Of a DNA stretch of 64,000 nt, positions 50,926 through 64,000 are shown piece by piece. The stretch spans positions 868,001-932,000 of the forward strand of contig JASCNX010000001.1 of the NCBI GenBank assembly GCA_029968055.1, given 5' to 3'. This stretch comes from Xenophilus aerolatus. Lineage in GTDB: Bacteria; Pseudomonadota; Gammaproteobacteria; Burkholderiales; Burkholderiaceae_C. The first letter of the stretch is position 1; each line of letters starts with the position of its first letter. The position numbers were made by a program, and so were the translations under genes. Under the pieces are notes generated by a model, which was given only the letters and a program-made list of their open reading frames with translations, was not told the origin of the DNA and searched no databases.

Positions 50926-52275
50926 ATGACCCTGCCCATCACCACCGAGCCGTCCCCGCCCCAGACCTGCGACGTCTTCGTCATCGGCGGCGGCCCGGCC
51001 GGCGCAACCATCGCGGCACTGCTCGCGCGCCAGGGGCGCCAGGTCGTGCTGGCCGAGAAGGCGCACCACCCGCGCTTCCACATCGGCGAATCGCTGCTGC
51101 CGGCCAACGTGGCGCTGTTCGACAGGCTGGGCGTGCGCGAGGAGGTCGAGAAGATCGGCATGGCCAAGTGGGGCGTCGAGTTCGTCTCGCCCGACCATGA
51201 CCACCGCGTGCAGCTCGAGTTCGCCGACGGCTGGGACAAGTCGCTCACGCATGCCTGGCAGGTGCGGCGCTCGGACCTGGACGAGATCCTCTTTCGCCGC
51301 GCCGCGGCCGACGGCGCGCAGGCCATCGAGGGCTGCCGCGTGCGCGATGTCGCCTTCGACGACCAGGGCGCCACCATCCGCGCCACGCTCGACGATGGCG
51401 CCGAGCGCAGCTGGCGCGCCCGCTTCGTGGTCGACTGTTCCGGCCGCGACACCTTCCTGGCCAACAAGTTCAAGGCCAAGCAGAAGAACCCGCGCCACAA
51501 CAGCTCCGCCCTGTTCGGCCACTTCCGCAATGCCGAGCGCGGCGAGGGCAAGCTCGAGGGCAACATCACGATCTTCTGGTTCCAGCACGGCTGGTTCTGG
51601 TACATCCCCCTGGCCGACGGCACCACCAGCATCGGCGCCGTGTGCTGGCCCTACTACCTCAAGTCGCGCACCAAGCCGGTCAAGGACTTCTTCGCCGACA
51701 CCATCGCGCTGTGCCCGGCACTGGTCGAGCGCCTGAAGGGTGCGGAGCTGGTCGACGATGCCGTCTACGCCACGGGCAACTACTCCTACACCAGCACCCA
51801 CTGCAGCGGCGAGCGCTACCTGATGCTGGGCGACGCCTTCACCTTCATCGACCCGGTGTTCTCCTCGGGCGTGTACCTCGCCATGCACAGCGCCTTCGAG
51901 GGCGTGGCCGTGGTCGACGCCACCCTCGACACGCCCGCCAGGGCGCCCGCGGCCCGGCGGGCCTTCGAGAAGTACATGCGATTCGGCCCGCGCGAGTTCT
52001 CGTGGTTCATCTTCCGCGTGACCAACCCGACCATGCGCGAGTTCTTCATGTACCCGCAGAACCCGCTGCGCGTGAAGGAGGCCCTGATGGGCCTGCTGGC
52101 CGGCGACATCCACGGCAAGACGCCGCTGTGGAACTCGCTGCGCGCGCTCAAGGGCTTCTACTTCGTGGCCTGCGCGCTGCATCCGCGCCGCAGCTGGAAC
52201 GCCTGGCGCCGCCGCCGTCGCAACGTGCGCGACCTCGGCCTGCTGGCCGGCGAAAACGTGGTCGACGCCAAGTGA
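50926..52275 (+). CDS. Flavin-dependent halogenase of the aryl-polyene cluster
   Basis: FAD enzyme of 449 residues. The FAD loop is GGGPAG at 21-26, followed by FHIGESLLP at 51-59. The halogenase signature WFWYIP (WxWxIP) is at 223-228, and a second FAD-contact GDAFTFIDPVFSSG occurs late. Lys81 in AKWGVEF sits where the catalytic lysine of GESLLP-type halogenases is expected, by position only. The family chlorinates or brominates phenols and pyrroles. Its stop overlaps the start of the chorismatase gene, so a phenolic substrate from that enzyme is plausible. An upstream TTG start is unlikely. A plain monooxygenase without halogenation is the alternative. Confidence 0.85.
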   Translation: MTLPITTEPSPPQTCDVFVIGGGPAGATIAALLARQGRQVVLAEKAHHPRFHIGESLLPANVALFDRLGVREEVEKIGMAKWGVEFVSPDHDHRVQLEFADGWDKSLTHAWQVRRSDLDEILFRRAAADGAQAIEGCRVRDVAFDDQGATIRATLDDGAERSWRARFVVDCSGRDTFLANKFKAKQKNPRHNSSALFGHFRNAERGEGKLEGNITIFWFQHGWFWYIPLADGTTSIGAVCWPYYLKSRTKPVKDFFADTIALCPALVERLKGAELVDDAVYATGNYSYTSTHCSGERYLMLGDAFTFIDPVFSSGVYLAMHSAFEGVAVVDATLDTPARAPAARRAFEKYMRFGPREFSWFIFRVTNPTMREFFMYPQNPLRVKEALMGLLAGDIHGKTPLWNSLRALKGFYFVACALHPRRSWNAWRRRRRNVRDLGLLAGENVVDAK

Positions 52276-53315
52276 CGGCCGCGCCCTCCCCCCACGCCGT
52301 GGCCCCGCTGCGCGTGCAGCGCCTGCCGTTGGCGCAGACACTGGCCAGCGCCGGGCACGACCACGCGCACGCGCCGCTCGCGGCACTGACCTACGGCGTC
52401 GCCGGCCACGAGCCGTGGATGACCGGCGTTGCCGCTCACGTGCTGCTGGAGCACGAGCCGCTGGCCGACGTGTGGCATGCGGGGCCGGCCGTGCAGTCCG
52501 GCACCACGGGCGTCGTGCGCTGGCGCACCGACGGCGACTGGCTGCTGGGCGTCGTCGACCTCAGCGAGGCCGACGAAGCCGGTGGCCTGGAACCGCTGGC
52601 ACGGCGCGCCTACGGCAACGTGTTCGACGCCATGCGCCAGACCGGCTGCACCGAGCTGCTGCGCATCTGGAACTACCTGCCGCGCATCAACGCCGATGGC
52701 GGTGGGCTGGAGCGGTACCGGCAGTTCAACGCCGGGCGGCAACAGGCCTTCCTGGACGCCGGCGCGGCCGCCTTCGACGGTGCACCGGCCGCCTGTGCGC
52801 TGGGCCTGCGCGACGGCGGCCTGTGCGTGCGCTTCCTGGCCGGCCGCGTGAAGGCGCTGCCGATCGAGAACCCGCGGCAGGTTTCGGCCTACCGCTACCC
52901 CGACCGCTACGGCCCGCGCGCCCCGACCTTCTCGCGCGCCGCGCTGGCGCCGCTGGGCGACGGCGACGTCGCGCTGTTCGTCTCAGGCACCGCCAGCATC
53001 GTCGGCCACGAGACGGTGCACGTCGGCGACGTGCAGGCCCAGGTGGCCGAAACGCTGACCAACCTGCACACCGTGATCGGCGAGGCTGCTGCCCGCACCA
53101 CCGCGCGCTTCACGCTGAAGGACACGGAGCCGGTCGTCTATGTGCGGCACCCGGCCGATGCGCCGCGCATCCGCGCGCAGCTGGCCGAGGCGCTGGGCGA
53201 GGACTCCCGCTTCATGCGGCAGGCGGTGTTCCTCGAAGCCGACATCTGCCGGGCCGACCTGCTGGTCGAGATCGAAACGCACGGCACGGCGGCCGGGAGC
53301 CTGATCGCGTCATGA
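52272..53315 (+). CDS. Chorismatase of the FkbO/XanB2 family
   Basis: Enzyme of 347 residues that cleaves chorismate to a hydroxybenzoate or dihydroxycyclohexadienoate. It has the family phrases LRIWNYLPRIN (130-140), RYRQFNAGRQQAF (148-160), GTASIVGHETVHVGDV (239-254) and the late LVEIE, whose Glu334 corresponds to the catalytic glutamate by position. XanB2 of Xanthomonas gives 3- and 4-hydroxybenzoate for pigment synthesis, and the gene context here favours that type. It starts at a GTG inside the halogenase stop (GTGA). It is often automatically named a pteridine-dependent deoxygenase-like protein. Confidence 0.85.
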   Translation: MTAAPSPHAVAPLRVQRLPLAQTLASAGHDHAHAPLAALTYGVAGHEPWMTGVAAHVLLEHEPLADVWHAGPAVQSGTTGVVRWRTDGDWLLGVVDLSEADEAGGLEPLARRAYGNVFDAMRQTGCTELLRIWNYLPRINADGGGLERYRQFNAGRQQAFLDAGAAAFDGAPAACALGLRDGGLCVRFLAGRVKALPIENPRQVSAYRYPDRYGPRAPTFSRAALAPLGDGDVALFVSGTASIVGHETVHVGDVQAQVAETLTNLHTVIGEAAARTTARFTLKDTEPVVYVRHPADAPRIRAQLAEALGEDSRFMRQAVFLEADICRADLLVEIETHGTAAGSLIAS

Positions 53316-54112
53316 CGCGGGCGACCGGCTTTCTCAAGGCCATCCTTCTCGCGCCGGTGCTGTACGTGCTGCTGCTGGGCCTGGGCCTGGCGTCGCTGGC
53401 CTGGAACCTGATCGCCATGGTGCTCTATCCGCTGCTGCCTGCCGCCCGCGGGCGTGTCGTGGGCCGGGCGGGCATCGCCTACGGGTATCGCGGCTTCTGG
53501 ATCATCGCGTCGCTCGTGGGCATGATGCGCATCGACGCACGCTGCCTGGCGCCGCTGCGCGACGAGGCCGGGCTGGTGATCGTGGCCAACCATCCGACGA
53601 TGCTCGACGCCCTGCTGCTCGTGGCGCACCTGCCGCGCAGCGCCTGCATCATGAAGGCGTCGCTGATGAAGAACGTCTTTCTCGGTGCCGGGGCGCGGCT
53701 GGCGCGCTACATCCGCAACGACTCGGCGCGCACCATGATCAAGCTGGCCGTGGCCGATCTGCGCGAAGGCGGCCAGTTGGTGATCTTCCCCGAGGGCACG
53801 CGCACCGAAGGCGGCCCGCTCAACCCCTTCCGGCCCGGCGTGACGCTGATCGCCAAGATGGCGCAGGCGCCGATCCAGACCGTGTTCATCGACACCGACT
53901 CGCCCTACCTCGGCAAGGGCTGGCCCATCTGGCGCGTGCCGCCGTTGCCGATCGTGTTCAACCTGCGGCTGGGCGAGCGCTTCGCGCCCTCGCAGGACAG
54001 CGACGCGCTGCTGGCGCAACTCGAAAACTACTACCGCCACCACACGGAAGCGCGCACAGGGAGTGCGCCCGCCACCGAATGCCAGAGCTCTCGCGCACCC
54101 ACCTTGTCCTGA
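53312..54112 (+). CDS. 1-acyl-glycerol-3-phosphate-type acyltransferase
   Basis: Membrane acyltransferase of 266 residues with N-terminal hydrophobic helices and the LPLAT blocks NHPTMLDA (HX4D) and FPEGTRT. It is expected to move an acyl or aryl-polyene chain onto a lipid or glycerol backbone. The ATG overlaps the chorismatase stop (ATGA), and its 3' end overlaps the next gene by 34 bases. A housekeeping role in phospholipid synthesis is unlikely in this context. Confidence 0.88.
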   Translation: MTRATGFLKAILLAPVLYVLLLGLGLASLAWNLIAMVLYPLLPAARGRVVGRAGIAYGYRGFWIIASLVGMMRIDARCLAPLRDEAGLVIVANHPTMLDALLLVAHLPRSACIMKASLMKNVFLGAGARLARYIRNDSARTMIKLAVADLREGGQLVIFPEGTRTEGGPLNPFRPGVTLIAKMAQAPIQTVFIDTDSPYLGKGWPIWRVPPLPIVFNLRLGERFAPSQDSDALLAQLENYYRHHTEARTGSAPATECQSSRAPTLS

Positions 54113-54855
54113 TCCCCAGCTACAACACCGGCGAGCGCCTGTTCTCCACCGTCGCCGGCGCGCGCGCGCAGTGGGGGCCGGTGTGGGTGGTGGTGGACGG
54201 CAGCACCGACGGCACCGGCGAGCGCCTGGCGGCGCAGGCCGAGGGCGATGCCGGCCTGCGGGTGTGGTGCCTGCCCGAGAACCAGGGCAAGGGCGCGGCG
54301 GTGATGCATGGCCTGCGCACGGCCCTGGCCGAGGGCTACACGCACGCGCTGACGATGGACTCCGACGGCCAGCACCCGGCCGACCTGATCCCGGCCTTCA
54401 TGCGGGCATCGGTGGCGCGGCCCGAGACGATGGTGCTGGGCCGGCCGGTGTTCGACGCGAGCGCGCCCTTGTTGCGGGTGCGCGGGCGCAAGGTGTCCAA
54501 CGGCTGGACGCAGCTGGAGACGCTGTTCGCGGGCATCGGCGATTCGCTGTACGGCTTTCGTGTGTACCCGATCGCCGAGTTGCTGGCGGTGATGGAGAGG
54601 CAGCCGTGGATGCGCCGCTTCGACTTCGACACCGAAGCCGTGGTGCGCCTGGCCTGGCGCGGGGTGAAGCCGGTGAACATCGATGCACCGGTGAAGTACC
54701 TGAGCGCGGAGGAAGGCGGCGTGTCGCACTTCCGCTATGGCCGCGACAACGTGCTGCTCACATGGATGCACACGCGGCTCATGGTCGAGTTCGTGCTGCG
54801 GCTGCCGGGGTTGCTGGTCCGGCGGTTGCTGAAGAAGCCGCCGTTTCAGGACTGA
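54079..54855 (+). CDS. Family 2 glycosyltransferase
   Basis: A 258-residue cytoplasmic-face glycosyltransferase. It has LIPSYNTG, the nucleotide-binding MDSDGQHPA (DxD-type) and a hydrophobic C-terminal segment that may bind the membrane. Such enzymes occur in aryl-polyene clusters, where they may add a sugar to the pigment or its lipid. The acceptor is unknown. It is the last gene of the plus-strand operon. Confidence 0.9.
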   Translation: MPELSRTHLVLIPSYNTGERLFSTVAGARAQWGPVWVVVDGSTDGTGERLAAQAEGDAGLRVWCLPENQGKGAAVMHGLRTALAEGYTHALTMDSDGQHPADLIPAFMRASVARPETMVLGRPVFDASAPLLRVRGRKVSNGWTQLETLFAGIGDSLYGFRVYPIAELLAVMERQPWMRRFDFDTEAVVRLAWRGVKPVNIDAPVKYLSAEEGGVSHFRYGRDNVLLTWMHTRLMVEFVLRLPGLLVRRLLKKPPFQD

Positions 54856-54936
54856 CTGGCTGGCTGGCTGGCTGCTGTGCTAGATCTTCATTGCGTTTGG
54901 ACGTGGTGGGTCTGAACCCGGCCGGCGGTGCCGGTA

Positions 54937-55400
54937 TGCGTTCTCCGGCGCAGGCTCGCGCTGACTGGCGTGCGGTGCTGTCGATGTGCTCGCTTGGCAT
55001 CGACGTGCTTGAGGGACTGCACGGCGCCGCGAATGGCGCCTGCGCCCGCACACCGGCACCACCGGCCTGGACGGTGGGGGTGAGCGGCCGGCATGGGACG
55101 GGCGCGTTTGGTTTGATGGCAGCTCCTCGCTGTTCCTCCCCCCCACCGGTGGTGCTCCCCCACCCGTTCGGGCTGAGCTTGTCGAAGCCCTGCGCAGCGC
55201 TTCGACAGGCTCAGCGCGAACGGGGATGGGGCATCAAACAGCCAGGAAAGTGAAGCGCAACGGTTCAGGGCGGTGGTCGTGGGCCTGCGGGCGCAGGCGC
55301 CATTCGCGGCGCCGTGCAGTCCCTCAAGCACGTCGATGGACAGGGAGCACCCAGCAAGCACAACAAGCCGGTCAGCGCGAGCCTGCGCCGGAGAACGCAG
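54937..55400. repeat. Nested inverted repeat element (outer arms)
   Basis: Outer arms at 54937-55049 and 55289-55400 are inverted copies. A 51-base stretch (on the left arm beginning ATCGACGTGCTTGAGGGACT) matches without a mismatch, as does a 29-base stretch beginning TGCGTTCTCCGGCGCAGGCT. The sequence between these two blocks has diverged. A second, inner palindrome lies within. No coding or transposase is seen. Confidence 0.85.
55164..55223. repeat. Inner hairpin of the CCGTTCG...TGTCGAAGC type
   Basis: Two 25-base arms (55164-55188 and 55199-55223) match with two mismatches around a 10-base loop. The arms carry CTGAGC, TTGTCGAAGC and GAACGG, a motif I know as a common bacterial repeat. 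Short GTTTGATG/CATCAAAC arms lie just outside it (55110 and 55232). Confidence 0.85.
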
Positions 55401-55519
55401 GCCCGCGGCCGCCGTCAGCGCCCCCGCCCGTCGTGCCGGCCAACCAGGCGCAGCCCAACCAAGCGCAGATTGCAGCATTAGCCGGCGACCACCTCGAGCG
55501 AGCCCTCTGCCCTCAGCCC

Positions 55520-56254
55520 TCAGACCATCCCGCCGTTGATCGAAATGATCTGCCCCGTGATGTAAGCCGCCTCCGGCCCGGCGAGGAACCCGGCCAGCGC
55601 CGCCACCTCTTCCGGCGTGCCCGCGCGCTTGACCGGCACCAGCTGCTGGATCAGCGCCGGGTCGAACACCGCATCGGCCATCGGCGACGCGATGATGCCC
55701 GGCGCGATGGCGTTCACCGTCACGCCGCGCGGCGCCACTTCGAGCGACAGTGCCTTGGTCGCGCTGTTGAGCGCACCCTTGGCGGCCGCATAGTTCACCT
55801 GGCCCTTGTTGCCCGTGATCGCCGCGACCGACGAGATGTTGATGATGCGGCCCCATCGCGTGCGCAGCATCGGCAGCAGCAAGGGCTGCGTCACGCGGAA
55901 GAAGCCGTTGAGCGACACGTCGATCACCTTGTGCCACTGCTCGGCGCGCATGCCGGGCATCACGGCGTCGTCGTGCACGCCGGCGTTGTTCACCAGCACC
56001 TGCACCGGGCCCGCCTCAAGGATGCGCGCACAGGCGTCGGCCGTGGCCTCGTCGCTCGTCAGGTCGAACACATGGCACTCGGCCTGGCCGCCTGATGCCA
56101 CGATGCGCGCGGCCAGCGCCTCGATGGCGTCGCGCCGGCCATTGGCATGCAGCAGCACGGTGGCGCCATCGCGCGCGAGGCGCTCGGCGATGGCCGAGCC
56201 GAGGGCGCCGCTGGCGCCGGTGACGAGGGCACGCTTGCCTTGGAGTGAGGTCAT
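55520..56254 (-). CDS. 3-oxoacyl-ACP reductase, FabG/ApeQ type
   Basis: SDR reductase of 244 residues for the beta-keto step of the polyene. It has TGASGALG near 13-20, NNAG near 88-91 and the YAAAK catalytic pair near 153-157. It is the last gene of the minus-strand operon. In many aryl-polyene clusters a ketosynthase would follow, but here only repeats do. Confidence 0.9.
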   Translation of the reverse strand: MTSLQGKRALVTGASGALGSAIAERLARDGATVLLHANGRRDAIEALAARIVASGGQAECHVFDLTSDEATADACARILEAGPVQVLVNNAGVHDDAVMPGMRAEQWHKVIDVSLNGFFRVTQPLLLPMLRTRWGRIINISSVAAITGNKGQVNYAAAKGALNSATKALSLEVAPRGVTVNAIAPGIIASPMADAVFDPALIQQLVPVKRAGTPEEVAALAGFLAGPEAAYITGQIISINGGMV

Positions 56255-56274
56255 GGGGGCAGGTCCGAAGAGGT

Positions 56275-56736
56275 TCAGGATGCCGCGGGCAGCGGCGTGT
56301 TGAGGACGACCACCGCGCGGCCGTCGGCCACGGGGCGGCCTGCGCCGTCTTCGACGCGGAAAGCGTACATCACCTGGTTCACGTCGCCCGACAGGCGCTC
56401 GGCATGCAGGTGCAGAGGCGTCGGCCGGTCGTCGAAGCGGGCGCCGTGCAGCCGCACGTTGCGGGTACTGGCCAGGAAGCCGGCCGACGGCGCGCTGCCC
56501 TCGGCGGCGAGCAGCCCGCCGTGCAGGGCCATCGCCTGCGCGGCGAACTCGATAGCGCACGCGCTCATCAAGCCGCTGGCGGTGCGCAGCGGGTTGGCCG
56601 GGTCGGTGTGGCGCGCGGTGGTGCAGTGGATGGACTGCGCGTCCCAGCGTTCGAGCCGGTCGAGCAGGCACATGTCGCCGCTGTGCGGAATGCGCGCGGC
56701 GATGCCCGCGCGGTCGAGGGTCTGGGGAGGGGTCAT
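56275..56736 (-). CDS. Hotdog 3-hydroxyacyl-ACP dehydratase, ApeP type
   Basis: A 153-residue hotdog-fold dehydratase with IPHSGDMCLLD at about 17-27, whose His takes the catalytic position of FabZ/FabA, then the helix phrase SACAIEFAAQAMALHGG. It removes water from the hydroxyacyl intermediate to form polyene double bonds. It is 20 bases before the FabG gene. Confidence 0.85.
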   Translation of the reverse strand: MTPPQTLDRAGIAARIPHSGDMCLLDRLERWDAQSIHCTTARHTDPANPLRTASGLMSACAIEFAAQAMALHGGLLAAEGSAPSAGFLASTRNVRLHGARFDDRPTPLHLHAERLSGDVNQVMYAFRVEDGAGRPVADGRAVVVLNTPLPAAS

Positions 56737-57506
56737 GTCGTCGAAGCCTCGATGTCGGCCACCAGCAGCACGTTGGCGAAGGGCGTGCCTTCGCTCATCG
56801 GCACGGGTTGCACGGAAAAGCCCAGGCACTGGAGCAGCGCGATCCATTCGTCCAAAGTACGGCCCCAGGTCGGCGACACCTTATGGCCGCGGATGCGCGT
56901 CACCGTGCGGTCGACCCACTGGCTGATCGCGAAGCCGCGCTTGCTGGCCGCATCGCCCACGCGCAGCAGCATGCGGCCGGGCACGCTCCGCTCGCCGGCT
57001 CCGCGCATCAGCGCGTCGCGCACGCGCAGCAGCACGCCCTCCTGCGCGGCGAGGTCGACGTAGTGCAGCACGTCGAGGATCACCACCACGTCGCATGCGG
57101 GGAACTCGGCGGTGCACATGTTGCCGCAGACGATGGTCGGCCGGGGCTCGATGTGGCCGACCGACTTCTGCGCCCGCACGACGTCGCGCGGCATGAGTTC
57201 GATGCCGGTGTACAGGGGCGCCGGCGGCGTCGCGGCCCAGCCCTGCGGCCAGCGGCCCGCGCGCTGCATGCCGGCCATGCTGTGCAGCAGGTTGGCGAAC
57301 AGGCTCTGGCCCGAGCCGATGTCGAGCATGCGCGGGCGCCCGGGGCCGATCAGCCCGCGCGACACGATGCCGCGGAAGGCCGGGTCGTAGCCCAGCTTGC
57401 CGCGCGCGAAATGCCAGGCGAAATTGCCGCCCTGCTTGTACGGGGCGCTGGCCTGGTCGTGCAGCTCGCGCCAGGCGGCGGCGGGGGTGAAGGTGGCGGT
57501 GGTCAT
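56733..57506 (-). CDS. Class I SAM-dependent methyltransferase
   Basis: A 257-residue methyltransferase with the SAM loop MLDIGSGQS at 60-68 and acidic VVVILDVLHYVD later. Such a gene is usual in aryl-polyene clusters, where it may methylate the aryl head. The start overlaps the stop of the deacetylase gene and its own stop overlaps the dehydratase start, so it is firmly within the operon. Confidence 0.88.
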   Translation of the reverse strand: MTTATFTPAAAWRELHDQASAPYKQGGNFAWHFARGKLGYDPAFRGIVSRGLIGPGRPRMLDIGSGQSLFANLLHSMAGMQRAGRWPQGWAATPPAPLYTGIELMPRDVVRAQKSVGHIEPRPTIVCGNMCTAEFPACDVVVILDVLHYVDLAAQEGVLLRVRDALMRGAGERSVPGRMLLRVGDAASKRGFAISQWVDRTVTRIRGHKVSPTWGRTLDEWIALLQCLGFSVQPVPMSEGTPFANVLLVADIEASTT

Positions 57507-58330
57507 GAAGTCTCTCTCAGCGCCTCGGGCAACGTCACCGAGCGCAGGCCGTCGGCATCCAGCCTCGCGAGCAGCGCGGGCAGCACCTCGAGCACCACGG
57601 GCCGGCCCGCGGCGGTGCGTGCTGCGTTGCCGTCGTGCAGCAGCAGGATGTCGCCCGCGGCCAGCCCCCGGGTCAGGCGCGCCAGCACCTTGGCCGCATC
57701 GCCCTCGCGCGTGTCGAAGCCGCGGCGGGTCCAGCTCACCAGCGTGAGGCCGAGCCGGTGCAGCACCGGCGCGAGGAAGGGGTTGCGCAGTCCGGCCGGC
57801 GCGCGGAAGCAGCGCGGGCGCTGGTCGGTCACGGCCTCCAGCATCTGCTGCGCGCGCTCGATCTCCGCCGCGTACCCGCGGGGGCCGAGGAAGGAGAAAT
57901 CGTGCCGGTGCCGCGCCGTGTGGTTCTGGATGCTGTGGCCGCGCGCCAGGATCTCGCGCGCCAGATCAGGGTGCGCCTGCACGCGTTCGGCGATGCAGAA
58001 GAAGGTCGCCCTGTGGCCGCCCGCATCGAGCAGGTCGAGCACAGCGGGCGTCACGGCCGGCTCGGGCCCGTCGTCGATGGTCAGCGCGACTTGCCGCCGG
58101 GCGACGGCCACAGGGGGCAGGCGCGTGATGTTCTCGCCCAGCCAGCGGCTGCGCGGGGTGAGCCCGATCGCGGTGATCGCCACATGGTTGAGCACCACCG
58201 CGGCCAGCGCCCACGGCCACAGCGAGGGCGCGACGACCACGGCCGCCAGCGCCGCCAGGTGAAGCACGGCGCTGGCGCGCACGAAAGGCGGCAGGCGCCA
58301 CGGCGCGGGAGAACGGGCGGCGGTGATCAT
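57503..58330 (-). CDS. Membrane-anchored polysaccharide deacetylase
   Basis: A 275-residue NodB-family carbohydrate esterase. Two N-terminal hydrophobic helices (about 20-55) anchor it, and the catalytic domain carries TIDDGPEP (Asp86-Asp87) and HSIQNHTARH, with His132 and His137 in the metal-binding block. It could trim a sugar attached to the pigment or to its lipid. It overlaps the MMPL stop (ATGA). A longer reading across the MMPL gene in another frame is a shadow. Confidence 0.87.
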   Translation of the reverse strand: MITAARSPAPWRLPPFVRASAVLHLAALAAVVVAPSLWPWALAAVVLNHVAITAIGLTPRSRWLGENITRLPPVAVARRQVALTIDDGPEPAVTPAVLDLLDAGGHRATFFCIAERVQAHPDLAREILARGHSIQNHTARHRHDFSFLGPRGYAAEIERAQQMLEAVTDQRPRCFRAPAGLRNPFLAPVLHRLGLTLVSWTRRGFDTREGDAAKVLARLTRGLAAGDILLLHDGNAARTAAGRPVVLEVLPALLARLDADGLRSVTLPEALRETS

Positions 58331-60738
58331 GCCGTCTCCTGCGCGGCCTCGGTCGATGCCCTGCCCGTGCGGGCGAAGGCCGCCGAGAGCAGCAGCGCCA
58401 GCAGCGCCCCCGGCGCGACCACCTGCCCGATCGCCGAGAGCGACGGAATGGCCGAGATCGCGATCAGCGTGAAGGACACCACCGTCGTCAGGTTGGCCAG
58501 CATGAGCGAGGCCAGCGTGTCCTCGTCGGCATGGCCCGTCACCTGCAGTTGGTCGAAGAAGAGCGCGTAGTTCGAGCCCACGGCCACCACCAGCAGCAGG
58601 CCCACGAGGTGCAGGATGCTCAGCGCCATGTGCATCGCGGCCATGGCGCCCAGCGTGAGCACGACCGCCACCACCAGCGGCAGACAGACGGCGAAGAGCC
58701 GACGCGCCGAGCGCAGCCAGAGGCCCAGCAGCACGACCACGGCGAGCGCGCCCAGCGCCACCTGCACGAAGGCGTCGTGCAGGTAACGGTCGTAGAGGTC
58801 GCCCAGTTCCTGGCCCACGTCGGCCACCGTCACGTCGGGCAGGCCGGCCAGCGCAGCGACGACCTTGGCATGCTCGAACTTGGGCCCGGTGTGCAGCGAC
58901 AGCATGGCGGCCCAGCCGCCGCCGGGACGCTCGAACAGGAGCGCGTTGGTCACCGCCTCGAGCGGGCCGGTGGCCATGTCCTTCAGCCCGACGGGCTGGC
59001 GCGTGCGTGCTTTCTCGACCTCGGCGACGAACGGCGCCAGGCGCTGGGCCGACAGCGGCAGGTCGGCCGTGGCCTCGGCCAGGCGCGCACGCAGGGTGTC
59101 CGCATCGGGCAGTGCCTCCAGCCGGCGCGCTTGCGTCTGCTGGCTGGGCAGGAAGCGCGTGACGGTGTCGTAGCCCAGCAGTTCGCCGCTGTCGACCAGC
59201 TTGTCGAGCCGCGCGCCCGCCGCCTCGGCGTTGCGCAGTGCCGCCTCGATGGTGTCGCCGTAGGCCACCACCAGCGTCGCGGCCTCGCTGGCACCGATGT
59301 CGTTGCGCAGGCTCTCGTCCAGCAGCTGCGCCGAGCGCGGCACCGGGCTCATCGAGCTGAGCTTGGCGCGCCACAGCTCCTGGCCCTGCCAGACGATCAG
59401 CGCCGCCGCCGCCACGCCCAGCGCCATGAGCGGCAGGCGCAGCCGGGGCAGCCCATGGACGATGGCGCCCGCCACTTGCGCCATGTAGCGGCGCAGACCC
59501 TTGCCGGTGGCGCCGTTGGGCGCCAGCACCGGCAGCACGAACCGTGTCGCCAGCGCCGCCGCGACCAGCCCGGCGATGGAGAAGACGCCCAGCTGCGCCA
59601 GGCCCGGGAAGCCCGAGAAGACCAGCGCCGCGAAGCCGCACACCGAGGTCAGCAGCCCGAGGCGCACCGTCGGCCAGTGCACGTCGCGCCAGCGCTGCCA
59701 GCCGGCCAGGCCAGCGCGTTCGGTCGCGACCTGGCGCGCCTGGATCAGGTAGTAGATGGCGTAGTCGACCGTCTCGCCGATGAGCGTGCTGCCGAAGCCC
59801 ATCGTCAGGCCGTGCACGTTGCCGAAGACCAGGCTCACGCTGGCGGTGCCGGCGACCACGCCCGTCGCCACCGGCAGCAGGGCCAGCGCCAGCGCACGCA
59901 GCGACGCGAAGGCCAGCAGCAGCAGGCCGCTCATGACGATCGCACCGACGACGGCCAGGTGGATCGCCTCGCCCTTGATGCTGTCGCGGCTCTGCACCGA
60001 GAACACCGCCGTGCCGCTCATCAGCAGACGCGGCGCCTGGGCACCCTGCCCCTTCGCCGCGGCGGCGGCTTCGGCAAAAGCACCGTGCACGCGCGCGATC
60101 GCGGCGGCCTGGGCGTCGAGGTCGCCACCGGCCGCGCGGGTGCTGGCCAGCAGCAGCGCGCGCGGCGCCTCGCGGGCCACCCACACGCCCTCGTCGGTGC
60201 GCGGCGCGGTGGGTGGGATCAGCGCCTCGGCGATGCGCGCGGCCTCACCGGTCGGGTCGCGATCGAGCAGCGGCTTGAAGGCATTGCCCGCGGGCGTGCC
60301 CAGCAGCGACAGCGTGTCGAGGATCGCGTTGCGCAGTCCCTCGGTGGTGAAGCGCGCGGGCGTGACGTCGGGCGACAGCTGGTAGCGGTGATCGAAGACC
60401 CAGGTGCCGGCGTCCTTCCAGTCGGTGGTGTCGCCGTTCTGCACCTGGTCGAACAGGCCGCTGGCGCGCAGCTTGCGGCCCATCTCGCGCGAGACCTGGG
60501 CGCGGTCGGCCGCGTCCTGCCCGCCCTCGATGCCGATGAACAGCGTGCGCGACGCGATGCCGCTTTGCAGCTGCTCGATCAGCATGCGCTGCTTGGCGTC
60601 GGGGCTGGCCGGCAGGAAGGCCGACAGGTCGGCGCTGAATTGCGAGCGCGCGATGACGCCCACGCCGGCCAGCAGCAGAAGCAGCCAGACGCCCAGCGCC
60701 AGCCACCGGTGCCGCGGACCTGCCGCCGTCACGCTCAT
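58327..60738 (-). CDS. MMPL/RND-family exporter of the polyene cluster
   Basis: A 803-residue inner-membrane exporter with a single helix at about 12-30, a large periplasmic loop, five helices, a second periplasmic loop and a second set of six helices. The second half carries the pattern VVAVGSNYALFFDQLQ. MMPL proteins of this size are the probable pigment or lipid exporter of aryl-polyene clusters. It overlaps its neighbours by four bases on both sides. Confidence 0.9.
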   Translation of the reverse strand: MSVTAAGPRHRWLALGVWLLLLLAGVGVIARSQFSADLSAFLPASPDAKQRMLIEQLQSGIASRTLFIGIEGGQDAADRAQVSREMGRKLRASGLFDQVQNGDTTDWKDAGTWVFDHRYQLSPDVTPARFTTEGLRNAILDTLSLLGTPAGNAFKPLLDRDPTGEAARIAEALIPPTAPRTDEGVWVAREAPRALLLASTRAAGGDLDAQAAAIARVHGAFAEAAAAAKGQGAQAPRLLMSGTAVFSVQSRDSIKGEAIHLAVVGAIVMSGLLLLAFASLRALALALLPVATGVVAGTASVSLVFGNVHGLTMGFGSTLIGETVDYAIYYLIQARQVATERAGLAGWQRWRDVHWPTVRLGLLTSVCGFAALVFSGFPGLAQLGVFSIAGLVAAALATRFVLPVLAPNGATGKGLRRYMAQVAGAIVHGLPRLRLPLMALGVAAAALIVWQGQELWRAKLSSMSPVPRSAQLLDESLRNDIGASEAATLVVAYGDTIEAALRNAEAAGARLDKLVDSGELLGYDTVTRFLPSQQTQARRLEALPDADTLRARLAEATADLPLSAQRLAPFVAEVEKARTRQPVGLKDMATGPLEAVTNALLFERPGGGWAAMLSLHTGPKFEHAKVVAALAGLPDVTVADVGQELGDLYDRYLHDAFVQVALGALAVVVLLGLWLRSARRLFAVCLPLVVAVVLTLGAMAAMHMALSILHLVGLLLVVAVGSNYALFFDQLQVTGHADEDTLASLMLANLTTVVSFTLIAISAIPSLSAIGQVVAPGALLALLLSAAFARTGRASTEAAQETA

Positions 60739-61331
60739 GGCGCCGCGCGCCCCGGCACGATGGTCATCACGGAACGGTCGCCGCCGACGAATTCCATTTC
60801 CACGCCCTGCAGCTCGCCCGCGCGGCCACTCAGTCGCAGGCTGCGGATCTGGCGGCCGAGCGCCGGATCGAGCGGCGCGAGGTCGAGCGTCCAGTCCTTG
60901 GCGTCGCCCTTCAGGTCGGTGCGGAAGTAGCGCTGCAGGAGCGTGGCGTTGCCACTGAGCGCGCCACGCATCGCCTCGATCAGGCCGGCGAGCTCGGGCA
61001 TGCTGTCGACGGTGGTCGTGCGGGTGCGGCCGCCACGCTGCAGCACCAGCGAATTGCCTTCCACCGACATCGATTCGGGCCGCGGGCTCAGCGTGCGACG
61101 CACCAGCTTGTCGGGCGGCACGAAGCTCAGCGTGCCGCTGGAGGCGAGCGGGCCGTCGATGCCCCGCACGTAGCGCTGCTCGGTGAACCGGGCCTCGCCG
61201 TTCTTCTGCTGGGCGAGCAGGCCCATCAGGTCCTTCACCTCGAAGGCCCAGGCGCTCGCCGCCGGCACCCATGCGGCCAGGGCCAACAAGGCGGCGGCGC
61301 ACCACGTCCGTGGGTAGCGGCTACTGCGCAT
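60735..61331 (-). CDS. LolA-like outer-membrane carrier protein
   Basis: A 198-residue periplasmic protein with a signal peptide (probable cut after AWA near residue 29) and a LolA/LolB-like half-barrel beginning VKDLMGLLAQ and ending GVEMEFVGGD. LolA carries lipoproteins, and the copies in aryl-polyene clusters probably carry the pigment lipid. Its start lies inside the end of the acyltransferase gene (11-base overlap). Confidence 0.87.
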   Translation of the reverse strand: MRSSRYPRTWCAAALLALAAWVPAASAWAFEVKDLMGLLAQQKNGEARFTEQRYVRGIDGPLASSGTLSFVPPDKLVRRTLSPRPESMSVEGNSLVLQRGGRTRTTTVDSMPELAGLIEAMRGALSGNATLLQRYFRTDLKGDAKDWTLDLAPLDPALGRQIRSLRLSGRAGELQGVEMEFVGGDRSVMTIVPGRAAP

Positions 61332-62337
61332 CTTCCTGCCAGAAATCATGGAAATTGAACCAGTTGTGGGGGTGGGCGCGGCACAGGGCCTCGAGCCGCC
61401 GTACATAGGCTTCGAGGGCGGCGCGGATGCGTTGTTCCCGCAGCAAAGGGTCGGTGATGCGGGCGGAGAAGTCGGCCAGCGGCTCGAACACCACCTCGTA
61501 GTGCGAGCCGCCGTGGTAGATGCCGGCCATGAACAGCACCTTGCGCCGCAGCAGCGCCGCGAGCCTGAAAGGCCCGTCGGTGAACGGCGCCTCCTTGCCG
61601 AGGAAAGGCAGCAGCAGGGTGCTGCCGCGCTGGCCGGCCGCCTCTTCCTGCGGCGTGAGGGTGCGGTCGCCGAGCATGCCGGCCATGTGGCCGGCGTCGA
61701 GCCAGTCGCGCAGCTCCAGCATGGCGCTCGGCCGGCCGAGAGAAATCACGCGGGGCTTGAGTCCGGGCAGGCTGATGGCGTCGAGCACCGCGTTGATGCG
61801 CCGCGCGTTGTCCGGGAACATCAGCATGGCCAGTTGCAGGTCGAGCTCGCCCGAACCCTGCTGCCGGCAGGCGCTGAGCGCCTCGAAGCTGCCCACATGC
61901 GCGCCGATGAGGAAGGCGCCGCGCCCGGCGCGCAGCTCGTCCTCGATCACCGGCACGCCGGTGACGTTGACATCGAAAAGGTCGAGCCGCCCGCGCAGGA
62001 AGTACACGCGGTCCAGCACCGTGGAGGCGAAGCCGTGCAGCAGGCGGTAGCCGTCGCCCCAGCCCGCGCGCGGCCCGACGGACCGCTCGAGGTAGCGCCG
62101 GATGTGGCGGCGCTGCGTCGGTGCGAAGAGCAGGAAGTACAGCGTGATGGGATGCAGGATCAGCCGCGCCACCGGCCGGCCCAGGCGCAGCGCCACCCAG
62201 CAGATGAAGCGCAGCGCGAGCATGTTGCTGCGCTCGGGCGCTTGCGCCCAGTCGGAGGGCGCCGTCGCGCTGGCGGCCGGCGGCGCCTCGGGCGGGCGCT
62301 TCTCCACCGGTCCCACATCCTCCCCAACCACGCTCAT
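61321..62337 (-). CDS. LpxL/HtrB-like acyltransferase
   Basis: A 338-residue lysophospholipid-type acyltransferase with one N-terminal hydrophobic helix (about 55-75) and the block GAHVGSFEA (HX4E), the HtrB-like catalytic motif. Later blocks include LGDRTLTPQEEA and FTDGPFRLAALL. It probably transfers the polyene acyl chain from its carrier to a lipid acceptor. The ATG overlaps the stop of the AMP-ligase gene. Confidence 0.88.
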   Translation of the reverse strand: MSVVGEDVGPVEKRPPEAPPAASATAPSDWAQAPERSNMLALRFICWVALRLGRPVARLILHPITLYFLLFAPTQRRHIRRYLERSVGPRAGWGDGYRLLHGFASTVLDRVYFLRGRLDLFDVNVTGVPVIEDELRAGRGAFLIGAHVGSFEALSACRQQGSGELDLQLAMLMFPDNARRINAVLDAISLPGLKPRVISLGRPSAMLELRDWLDAGHMAGMLGDRTLTPQEEAAGQRGSTLLLPFLGKEAPFTDGPFRLAALLRRKVLFMAGIYHGGSHYEVVFEPLADFSARITDPLLREQRIRAALEAYVRRLEALCRAHPHNWFNFHDFWQEDAQ

Positions 62338-64000
62338 GGGACGGCAGCTCCGGGGGTCCAGCGGCCGGTGGCCGCCACGGTGTCGCCGCAGCGGATGTCG
62401 AAGCGCACGCCCCGCCCTGCCCCCTCGTCGGGCTGCAGGTCGAACACCAGCGTGCTGCCCGGCCTGACCGGCGCCAGGAACTTGGCCGCGGCCAGCACCG
62501 GCGCATCGCCCAGGCGCCGGTGCAGCGCCGGCACCCGCTGCATCGCTTCCTGCAGCTCCGCCAGCAGCAGCGCGCCGGGCATCAGCGGCTGGCCCGGGAA
62601 ATGGCCGGCGAAGCAGGGATGGTCGTCGGGCACCTCGTGCGTCAGTCGCACCGGCGCACCTTCGGCAGCCAGCTGCGCCAGCGCGAACTCGCGCAGCGCG
62701 CGCACCGTGAGCTTGCCCGTGCCCTCGCGCGGCAGCGACGCCACGTGCACCACGCGGCGCGGCACGAAGACGGCTTCGATGCGATCGCGCAGCGCGGCCA
62801 CGATGTCGTGGGCCTCCACGCCTGGCGCGACCACGAAGGCGATGGGACGCACCACGCCGTCGGCCACGTCGTCGGGCAGCCAGAAGGCGCCGTCCTGCAC
62901 CCCGGCGACGCTGTTGAGGTGGTAGTTGAGGTGGCCCAGCGAGCTGCGCCGGCCCGCCACGTGGATCAGGTCGTTGGCGCGGCCGAAGAGCCGAAAGCGC
63001 CGTGCGTCCAGCAGTTCGAGCACGTCGGCCATCGGCGTCGGCTCGGGGACGAAATCGCCCTCGAACACGAAGCGCTCCACGCCGTCGGCGCCGGTACGGG
63101 CATGCACCTCGATGGCGCCGAAGGTCTCCCACACTTCGCTGCGGGTGGTGCGGCGCACCGCCACCTGGCCGGATTCGGTGCTGCCGTAGATCTCGAGCAG
63201 CACGCCGCCCGTTGCCTGCTCGGCCTGCTGGGCCAGTTGGGGCGACAGCGGTGCCGTGGCCGAGAGCAGCAGGTCCACCGGCGGCAGCGCCAGGCCCGAC
63301 TGCAGCAGCGTCTTCAGGTGGAAGGGCGTCGTCACCAGCGCGCGCGGGCGCGGCACCGATTCGAGCGCCTGCACGATGTCGGCCGGATAGAAGGGCCGGC
63401 CGCTCTCGAACGCGGCACCGCCGTGCAGCGCCAGCAGCAGGGTCGACTCCAGGCCGTAGCTGTGCTGCACCGGCACCGTGGCCACCAGCGTCAGGCCATG
63501 CAGCGAATCGAGGCCGAGCAGCGCGCACAGGCTCGGCACGGCCGCCTCGACGTCGCCGACCAGGGTGTCCCAGCGCTTGGCGTGCGGCTGCGGCACGCCG
63601 GTCGAGCCGGAGGTGAGCAGGCTCACGGCGTGCCGGGCGCCGTCGAAATGCGGCACGGCCCCGTCGTGCTCGCCCTCGCCCGCTTCTCGCGTGCACACCA
63701 CTGGCACATGCGGCAGGCCGGGCGTGTCGAGTGCCGGGTGGTCGGTCAGGATGAACGGCGTGGCGTGCGGCGCGCACACCCGCGCCAGGGTGTCGGGCCG
63801 CGCGTCGGGCGGTAGCAGGCTCGCATGGCCGCGCAGCAGCGCAGCACCCAGGCACACCGCGAAGGCATAGCGGTCGCCGCAGACATTGACGGCCGGGCCT
63901 TCGGCCGGCAGCACCGCCGCCTGCCGCGCCACGTCGGCCAGGAAGGTGCGGGCACTGACCGGCCGGCCCTGGTGCCAGGCCAGCGGCGCGTCCAGGTCGC
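62334..64000 (-). CDS. AMP-ligase (acyl-CoA synthetase type) fused to a hotdog dehydratase (5' end outside window)
   Basis: The right edge cuts the gene. About 555 codons are seen. The AMP-binding domain carries LTSGSTGVPQP (bases about 63584-63620) and the later motif YGSTESGQVA. The C-terminal 110 residues are a separate hotdog fold with AGHFPGQPLMPG (about 62579-62611), like ApeI/FabZ. In E. coli aryl-polyene clusters these are two proteins (ApeH and ApeI). The ligase would activate the aryl starter. The frame stays open to the edge, so the true start lies beyond 64000. Confidence 0.88.
   Translation of the reverse strand, partial: DLDAPLAWHQGRPVSARTFLADVARQAAVLPAEGPAVNVCGDRYAFAVCLGAALLRGHASLLPPDARPDTLARVCAPHATPFILTDHPALDTPGLPHVPVVCTREAGEGEHDGAVPHFDGARHAVSLLTSGSTGVPQPHAKRWDTLVGDVEAAVPSLCALLGLDSLHGLTLVATVPVQHSYGLESTLLLALHGGAAFESGRPFYPADIVQALESVPRPRALVTTPFHLKTLLQSGLALPPVDLLLSATAPLSPQLAQQAEQATGGVLLEIYGSTESGQVAVRRTTRSEVWETFGAIEVHARTGADGVERFVFEGDFVPEPTPMADVLELLDARRFRLFGRANDLIHVAGRRSSLGHLNYHLNSVAGVQDGAFWLPDDVADGVVRPIAFVVAPGVEAHDIVAALRDRIEAVFVPRRVVHVASLPREGTGKLTVRALREFALAQLAAEGAPVRLTHEVPDDHPCFAGHFPGQPLMPGALLLAELQEAMQRVPALHRRLGDAPVLAAAKFLAPVRPGSTLVFDLQPDEGAGRGVRFDIRCGDTVAATGRWTPGAAVP

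Follow-up and report, generated by a model that had tools for sequence, protein, structure and literature searches.

Type II polyketide synthases are commonly pictured with their ketosynthase and chain-length factor (KS-CLF) in the same gene cluster. Several arrangements have been described for aryl-polyene and related pigments. The arc genes of Azoarcus sp. BH72 are split over two unlinked loci, both of which are required for pigment (PMC3949708). Work on Lysobacter found a short CLF-like partner of the KS to be indispensable; the same paper reports a halogenase for Xanthomonas and, in a figure legend, a Variovorax paradoxus KS-CLF with a halogenase and without a mannosyl-synthase neighbour (PMC3691225). 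For the ape system, ApeO-ApeC is reported to suffice for full-length polyene in vitro, with throughput increased by a second KS; the 6QSP structure is also mentioned (PMC8358021). Here we describe a block of twelve genes at positions 50926-64000 of a 64,000-nucleotide stretch of DNA (the window; G000:C1:868001-932000) from a 5.1-Mb genome of 11 contigs. The block is correctly identified as pigment genes, and what it lacks is informative. The KS-CLF is missing from the cluster in this bacterium and its relatives and has probably been replaced by a cousin pair far off on the chromosome.

Families were assigned by Pfam, NCBIfam and PDB sequence searches (Table 1). An earlier note had proposed, from the letters of the window, that twelve genes of aryl-polyene or xanthomonadin families form two convergent operons here, with tight overlaps between neighbours. 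Coordinates and family matches bear this out: all twelve frames are open, and nine of the ten same-strand neighbour pairs within the window overlap, by 4, 4 and 34 bp on the plus strand and by 4, 4, 4, 4, 11 and 4 bp on the minus strand, with a single 20-bp gap between the FabG and dehydratase genes. Including genes beyond the window, the whole cluster covers C1:918926-933027. The first 40 bases of the AMP-ligase fusion gene fall beyond the window end, and past the acyl carrier protein (ACP) the minus-strand operon is bordered by an unrelated plus-strand gene. We know of no E. coli-type ape cluster with a chorismatase or halogenase. The note's preference for a xanthomonadin-type over an E. coli-type reading fits, with a near gene-for-gene match to the Azoarcus sp. 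BH72 arc loci (PMC3949708). The conclusion that the block is the main part of a xanthomonadin/arcuflavin-type aryl-polyene pathway is thus supported. The same note had named the right flank as the place to look for a KS and an ACP, and there the outcome is divided: the ACP is present and the KS is absent.

No KS was found in the minus-strand operon or in the right flank, where 34 kb past the window were scanned for gene-like open reading frames (ORFs) by composition and the first genes were read. Most relatives have a KS-CLF slot with the methyltransferase or deacetylase on one side and the dehydratase on the other; ours is closed to a 4-bp overlap. Among 28 loci mapped in the family, 19 have a KS at the slot, which in these runs from methyltransferase or deacetylase (MMPL in one or two layouts) to dehydratase or FabG. 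The slot lacks a KS in our locus, in G071, G122 and G053, and also in G090, which was read later. Five loci (G005, G094, G015, G079 and G146) were cut or left the slot uncovered at first mapping, and G005, G015 and G079 were found to have a KS at the cluster once more sequence was read. We also considered 80 named loci, leaving 14 that could not be assessed out of the counts. A KS is at the slot in 48 of the other 66 and absent from 18, comprising all 15 assessable Variovorax loci, one Xenophilus and two metagenome-assembled genomes (MAGs), one with a ligase 96% identical to ours and the other a Burkholderiales MAG.

Ketosynthases are present elsewhere in the genome. PF00109 gives 13 matches, five of them long: an ORF on contig C7, FabF on C4, and KSs at C1:634 kb, C3:356 kb and C8:45 kb. 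In a profile and sequence search of the genome, no ApeO-like KS other than that on C8 was found. This KS (C8:44833-46035, within a KS-CLF pair at C8:44030-46035) has ApeO as its best PDB match (6QSP_A, E 5.4e-72) and retains its Cys/His/His motifs, and the gene that overlaps it belongs to PF13723 and best matches ApeC (6QSP_B, E 1.3e-7); we take 6QSP to be ApeO-ApeC. A KS-CLF of the ApeO-ApeC kind is therefore present in the genome but not within the cluster. The cluster lies more than 0.9 Mb from both ends of C1 (1.86 Mb) and so cannot be near C8 or C3. Separation is also seen in Variovorax: the KS-to-ligase coordinate difference is 1.3-4.1 Mb in all 23 genomes of that genus, identified by eye, that have both genes on one contig, not counting a second G163 KS copy on another contig.

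The surroundings of the distant pair are themselves recurrent. A major facilitator superfamily (MFS) gene precedes the KS-CLF, and a halogenase-like gene follows it, then genes that by eye resemble a response regulator and a sensor kinase. The order MFS-KS-CLF-regulator is also seen in G071, the near-identical MAG G232, Xenophilus, G122 and all seven further genomes of the G122 genus that were read. G122, G225 and G215 have no halogenase-like gene separating CLF and regulator. In G005, G090 and G231 (the last on a short contig), a trio of KS, CLF and halogenase-like gene occurs without such an MFS or regulator match adjoining. The CLF adjoins the KS in 30 of 30 loci examined from the KS search covering the G122 genus. 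Genes resembling the halogenase-like enzyme of C8 adjoin pigment genes in G074, G053 and Pseudorhodoferax L180.

The distant KS co-occurs with the pigment ligase. In a family sample of 150 genomes (33 ligase-positive, 117 ligase-negative), all 33 ligase-positive genomes have an ApeO-like match with an E-value no higher than 1e-55; seven of the 117 ligase-negative genomes have a match of that strength, at 43-49% identity over part of the protein. The C8-type KS is present in six genomes of the sample, all six ligase-positive. G122 groups with named Variovorax in the ligase tree, so its genus is Variovorax, and the KS positions of three named Variovorax genomes are those of G162, G210 and G184. 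Within this genus, the C8-type KS was found in 80 of 81 genomes and the ligase in 80 of 81, the single misses being in drafts 58% (KS) and 89% (ligase) complete. Each of the six named KS-less genomes that were searched has a C8-type KS (73-98% identity) and no other match; the C8-type KS is likewise present in KS-less G071, G122 and G090. Eight named genomes with a KS in the cluster have only 52-57% matches to the C8 KS, two of them twice. Across both KS-less clades, every KS-less genome searched carries the distant paralog except one 58%-complete draft.

Tree topology indicates that the distant KS is a paralog of the in-cluster KSs and not their orthologue. In a tree of 78 KS sequences, 60 in-cluster-type and 18 C8-type sequences, labelled by the higher-scoring of two queries, split at 100/100 support; fragments shorter than 330 residues had been left out, and 10 of the 30 loci from the G122-genus search were taken. 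Identity between the two types is 49-57%, and our KS, that of G122 and the other C8-type KSs are mutually 67-98% identical. On a ligase tree (93 rows, quick method, G053 not included), the distribution of KS-less clusters requires two changes, one in a clade of Variovorax, Xenophilus and our own genus and one in a clade of G090 and L178. This single-gene tree suggests that the KS-less state arose at least twice.

From the intact catalytic motifs, the co-occurrence and the repeated complementary loss, we infer that the distant KS-CLF serves the cluster. We therefore consider it likely that this is a xanthomonadin-type pathway whose KS-CLF is supplied in trans by the paralogous ApeO-ApeC-type pair on C8. 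The chorismatase would make 3-hydroxybenzoate, which the ligase domain would load on the ACP, and a type II polyketide synthase would extend this starter, with the KS-CLF from C8:44030-46035 condensing. FabG would reduce, and dehydration would fall to the ApeP-like protein and to the dehydratase domain of the ligase fusion. The methyltransferase and halogenase may decorate the ring, the acyltransferases and the family 2 glycosyltransferase (GT2) may join the polyene to a lipid, and the MMPL and LolA proteins may carry the polyene lipid to the outer membrane. The FabF-like KS on C3, which lies in a module with its own ACP and PAP2 (C3:355-357 kb), may assist in condensation. More tentatively, and as a possibility that we hold well short of likely, the paralogous pair may have displaced the core condensing enzyme at least twice and become fixed across the Variovorax lineage, with the new pair altering chain length or separating control of the pigment. 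The new pair stands beside its own halogenase-like gene and, in the Variovorax lineage, a response regulator.

Several observations weigh against supply of the KS-CLF in trans. The main block of G053 lacks a KS, yet this genome retains an in-cluster-type KS, along with a divergent C8-like KS, on another contig. G005 and G100 have both KS types, so the C8-type pair had or has a role beside the in-cluster pair. Condensation by FabF on C4, by the C3 KS or by the KS at C1:634 kb is also conceivable. The type labels in the KS tree depend on query scores, and the ligase tree is one gene by a quick method. The co-residence of two KS types in G005 and G100, and the lack of a KS in the operon and flank, would also suit a broken or repurposed remnant for the making or export of short aryl lipids such as hydroxybenzoyl esters, the distant KS-CLF having some other product. 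We think this improbable, because FabG, two dehydratases and the ACP remain as stop-free genes whose starts overlap, the ligase persists in 80 of 81 G122-genus genomes, and the C8-type KS never occurs without the ligase in the family sample. Simple translocation of the in-cluster pair, with gene content the same in kind, could explain why the protein families and the KS-CLF order are those seen in clusters. It is very hard to reconcile with the fully supported split of the KS groups, the identity gap between and within types, the presence of both types in G005 and G100, and, in both G053 and Rubrivivax A210, a long-branched KS on the C8 side of the tree beside one of the in-cluster type.

Alternatively, a FabF-type KS (the C3 KS with its ACP, or the housekeeping FabF) may condense, with the C8 pair having a different main task. 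C3-type orthologs (at least 68% identity) occur in nine family genomes, all ligase-positive, and a PAP2-ACP-KS module lies inside the cluster, between GT2 and FabG, in Variovorax L149 and L153, as do PAP2 and KS in G069. This alternative is nonetheless quite unlikely. The C3 KS best matches FabF/KASII and neither ApeO nor ApeR, and many relatives with the full cluster have no close C3 ortholog, G058, G060 and G143 for instance having only FabF-level matches. The next C3-type match, in G103 (60%), comes without a ligase hit, and ApeO-ApeC needs no second KS to give full-length polyene (PMC8358021). We retain the C3 KS only as a rival or helper, and not as the main elongating enzyme. The C1:634-kb KS was rejected as a replacement, as its close relatives also occur in ligase-negative G043, G092 and G003 and its best match is FabF/KASII.

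Table 1. Features of the pigment cluster and the halogenase-like gene beside the distant KS-CLF. Positions are those of the window, continued past its end, unless a contig is named; aa, amino acids; FAD, flavin adenine dinucleotide; SAM, S-adenosylmethionine.
Feature	Position	Strand	Evidence
FAD-dependent halogenase-like protein, 449 aa	50926-52275	+	PF04820 (Trp_halogenase) 106.9 bits; best PDB match 3e1t 'Halogenase', E 7.5e-50
FkbO/Hyg5/XanB2-kind chorismatase, 347 aa	52272-53315	+	PF21168; TIGR04444 237 bits, below 325 cut-off
PlsC-type acyltransferase, 266 aa	53312-54112	+	PF01553 65.6 bits; NHPTMLD motif
GT2, 258 aa	54079-54855	+	PF00535 Glycos_transf_2, 58.9 bits
Repeat-element gap between convergent operons	54856-55519	.	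Self-matches in own genome
FabG-type ketoreductase, 244 aa, ApeQ-like role	55520-56254	-	NF004200 328 bits, above cut-off
ApeP-like dehydratase, 153 aa	56275-56736	-	18-member profile vs 6QSR_B, E 7.4e-10
Closed KS-CLF slot (methyltransferase/dehydratase overlap, 4 bp)	56733-56736	-	Gene coordinates
SAM-methyltransferase-like protein, 257 aa	56733-57506	-	Only below-cut-off Pfam matches, Methyltransf_25/12/11
Polysaccharide-deacetylase-family protein, 275 aa	57503-58330	-	PF01522 107.5 bits
MMPL/RND-like exporter, 803 aa	58327-60738	-	NCBIfam HpnN, RND/HAE3 below cut-off; no Pfam match
LolA-like carrier, 198 aa	60735-61331	-	PF19574 (LolA_3) 79.4 bits
LpxL-type acyltransferase, 338 aa	61321-62337	-	PF03279 (Lip_A_acyltrans) 29.6 bits
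AMP-ligase + FabA-like dehydratase fusion, 568 aa	62334-64040	-	PF00501, PF13193, PF07977
Membrane protein, past window	64037-64714	-	No Pfam match
ACP, past window	64731-65027	-	PP-binding
Second halogenase-like FAD enzyme, beside C8 KS-CLF	G000:C8:42385-44019 (L024 4385-6019)		

The chorismatase is of the XanB2/Hyg5 type at the family level. Its nearest PDB entry is 5ag3, which we take to be Hyg5, and it has Cys as in 5ag3 where FkbO (4bps) has Ala. Its product is predicted to be 3-hydroxybenzoate, with the caution that chorismatase products are not predictable from sequence alone (PMC3949708). A putative aryl-acid ligase and dehydratases of the ApeI/ApeP type are present as the AMP-binding/FabA-like fusion and the ApeP-like protein. 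The C-terminal part of the fusion has weak matches to FabZ chains and to 6QSR_A (E 0.002), and the 153-residue dehydratase has no Pfam match and no significant single-sequence PDB match, its assignment requiring a profile of 18 relatives; 6QSR is presumably the ApeI-ApeP pair. FabG is accompanied by one ACP in the operon, a second ACP lying beside the C3 KS; two ACPs side by side, as in E. coli-type clusters, were not found in this cluster. Both acyltransferases, the LolA-like carrier and the MMPL-type exporter are present, the last recognized through below-cut-off matches only. The membrane protein before the ACP is presumably COG4648/ApeG-like. The halogenase-like protein has WFWYIP at 223 and Lys81, which we take to be halogenase motifs. 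Halogenase-like genes occur at two sites, 50926 in the window and C8, with putative halogenating roles; the Azoarcus pigment is non-brominated despite an annotated halogenase gene (PMC3949708).

The Azoarcus product is esterified to dialkylresorcinol (PMC3949708), and a DarB-like enzyme is unlikely in our genome. Its single PF08541 (KASIII) match, about 3 kb from FabF, gives no sign of DarA/DarB, with DarB assumed to match PF08541 and no DarA search made. Since this sole match lies near FabF, a dialkylresorcinol tail is unlikely, and an arcuflavin-like hybrid is not supported.

The gap between the operons is a 664-bp repeat element, which occupies the GT2-FabG spot where L149 and L153 hold PAP2-ACP-KS; the module either left this spot or never arrived there. 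The element has 89 matches in its own genome including itself, and four of the other copies are nearly full length. It has 121-nt inverted arms that are 87% complementary and a central palindrome resembling a repetitive extragenic palindromic (REP) sequence.

Other loci add to the picture. G053 (contigs C2 and C45) has two tandem KS-CLF pairs adjoining MMPL, LolA and ACP, and in G079 the same pathway is split over three places (C1:2.37, 3.11 and 3.29 Mb). Scattering therefore recurs, and replacement is one outcome of it. In our genome, the C7 ORF (about 2,460 aa; L025 4910-12292; G000:C7:24.9-32.3 kb) has a strong ketosynthase domain and by eye resembles a nonribosomal peptide synthetase/polyketide synthase. 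The C1:634-kb KS lies in a locus (L020 7552-16960; G000:C1:629.5-639 kb) of alpha/beta hydrolase, ACP, FabF-like KS, PAP2, GT2 and PMT-family glycosyltransferase genes that adjoins a predicted two-component system; close relatives of its KS occur with and without the pigment ligase.

Among the publication listings searched, none described a Variovorax aryl-polyene cluster that is dispersed or lacks its KS, although the KS may already be shown apart in Table S2 of PMC3949708 (on Variovorax paradoxus S110) or in figures of PMC3949708 and PMC3691225. The pair expected to set chain length has apparently given way to a distant paralog, both in almost every genome examined from one genus and, separately, in an unrelated clade. 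This amounts to a natural swap experiment on the specificity of a KS-CLF for its ACP and reductases and on the determinants of polyene length. Cluster finders that need a KS in the block may overlook the pathway in Variovorax and its relatives or break it into pieces. The predicted pigment of the pathway is presumably yellow and light-protecting.

The ape clusters of E. coli, Xenorhabdus and Acinetobacter resemble our system in ApeO/ApeC-like (ours on C8), ApeP-like and ApeQ-like (FabG) proteins, a ligase and an ACP, and in a second KS with a second ACP, ours being on C3 (PMC8358021). They differ in a 4-hydroxybenzoyl starter, in KSs inside the cluster, and in a second KS, ApeR, that is FabB-like whereas our C3 KS is FabF-like (PMC8358021). 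The Xanthomonas and Lysobacter enzymogenes clusters share the KS with a short CLF-like partner, the reductase, two dehydratases and an acyltransferase; they are single clusters with the KS-CLF inside, and the cited part of that paper does not describe displacement by a paralog (PMC3691225). Closest are the Azoarcus sp. BH72 arc loci, which share the halogenase, XanB2-type chorismatase, two acyltransferases, glycosyltransferase, reductase and dehydratases (PMC3949708) as well as the methyltransferase, deacetylase, exporter, LolA, AMP-ligase and ACP (PMC3949708, Table 1). There the KS and CLF (arcK, arcJ) adjoin the dehydratase and reductase, whereas our pair is distant and paralogous (PMC3949708).

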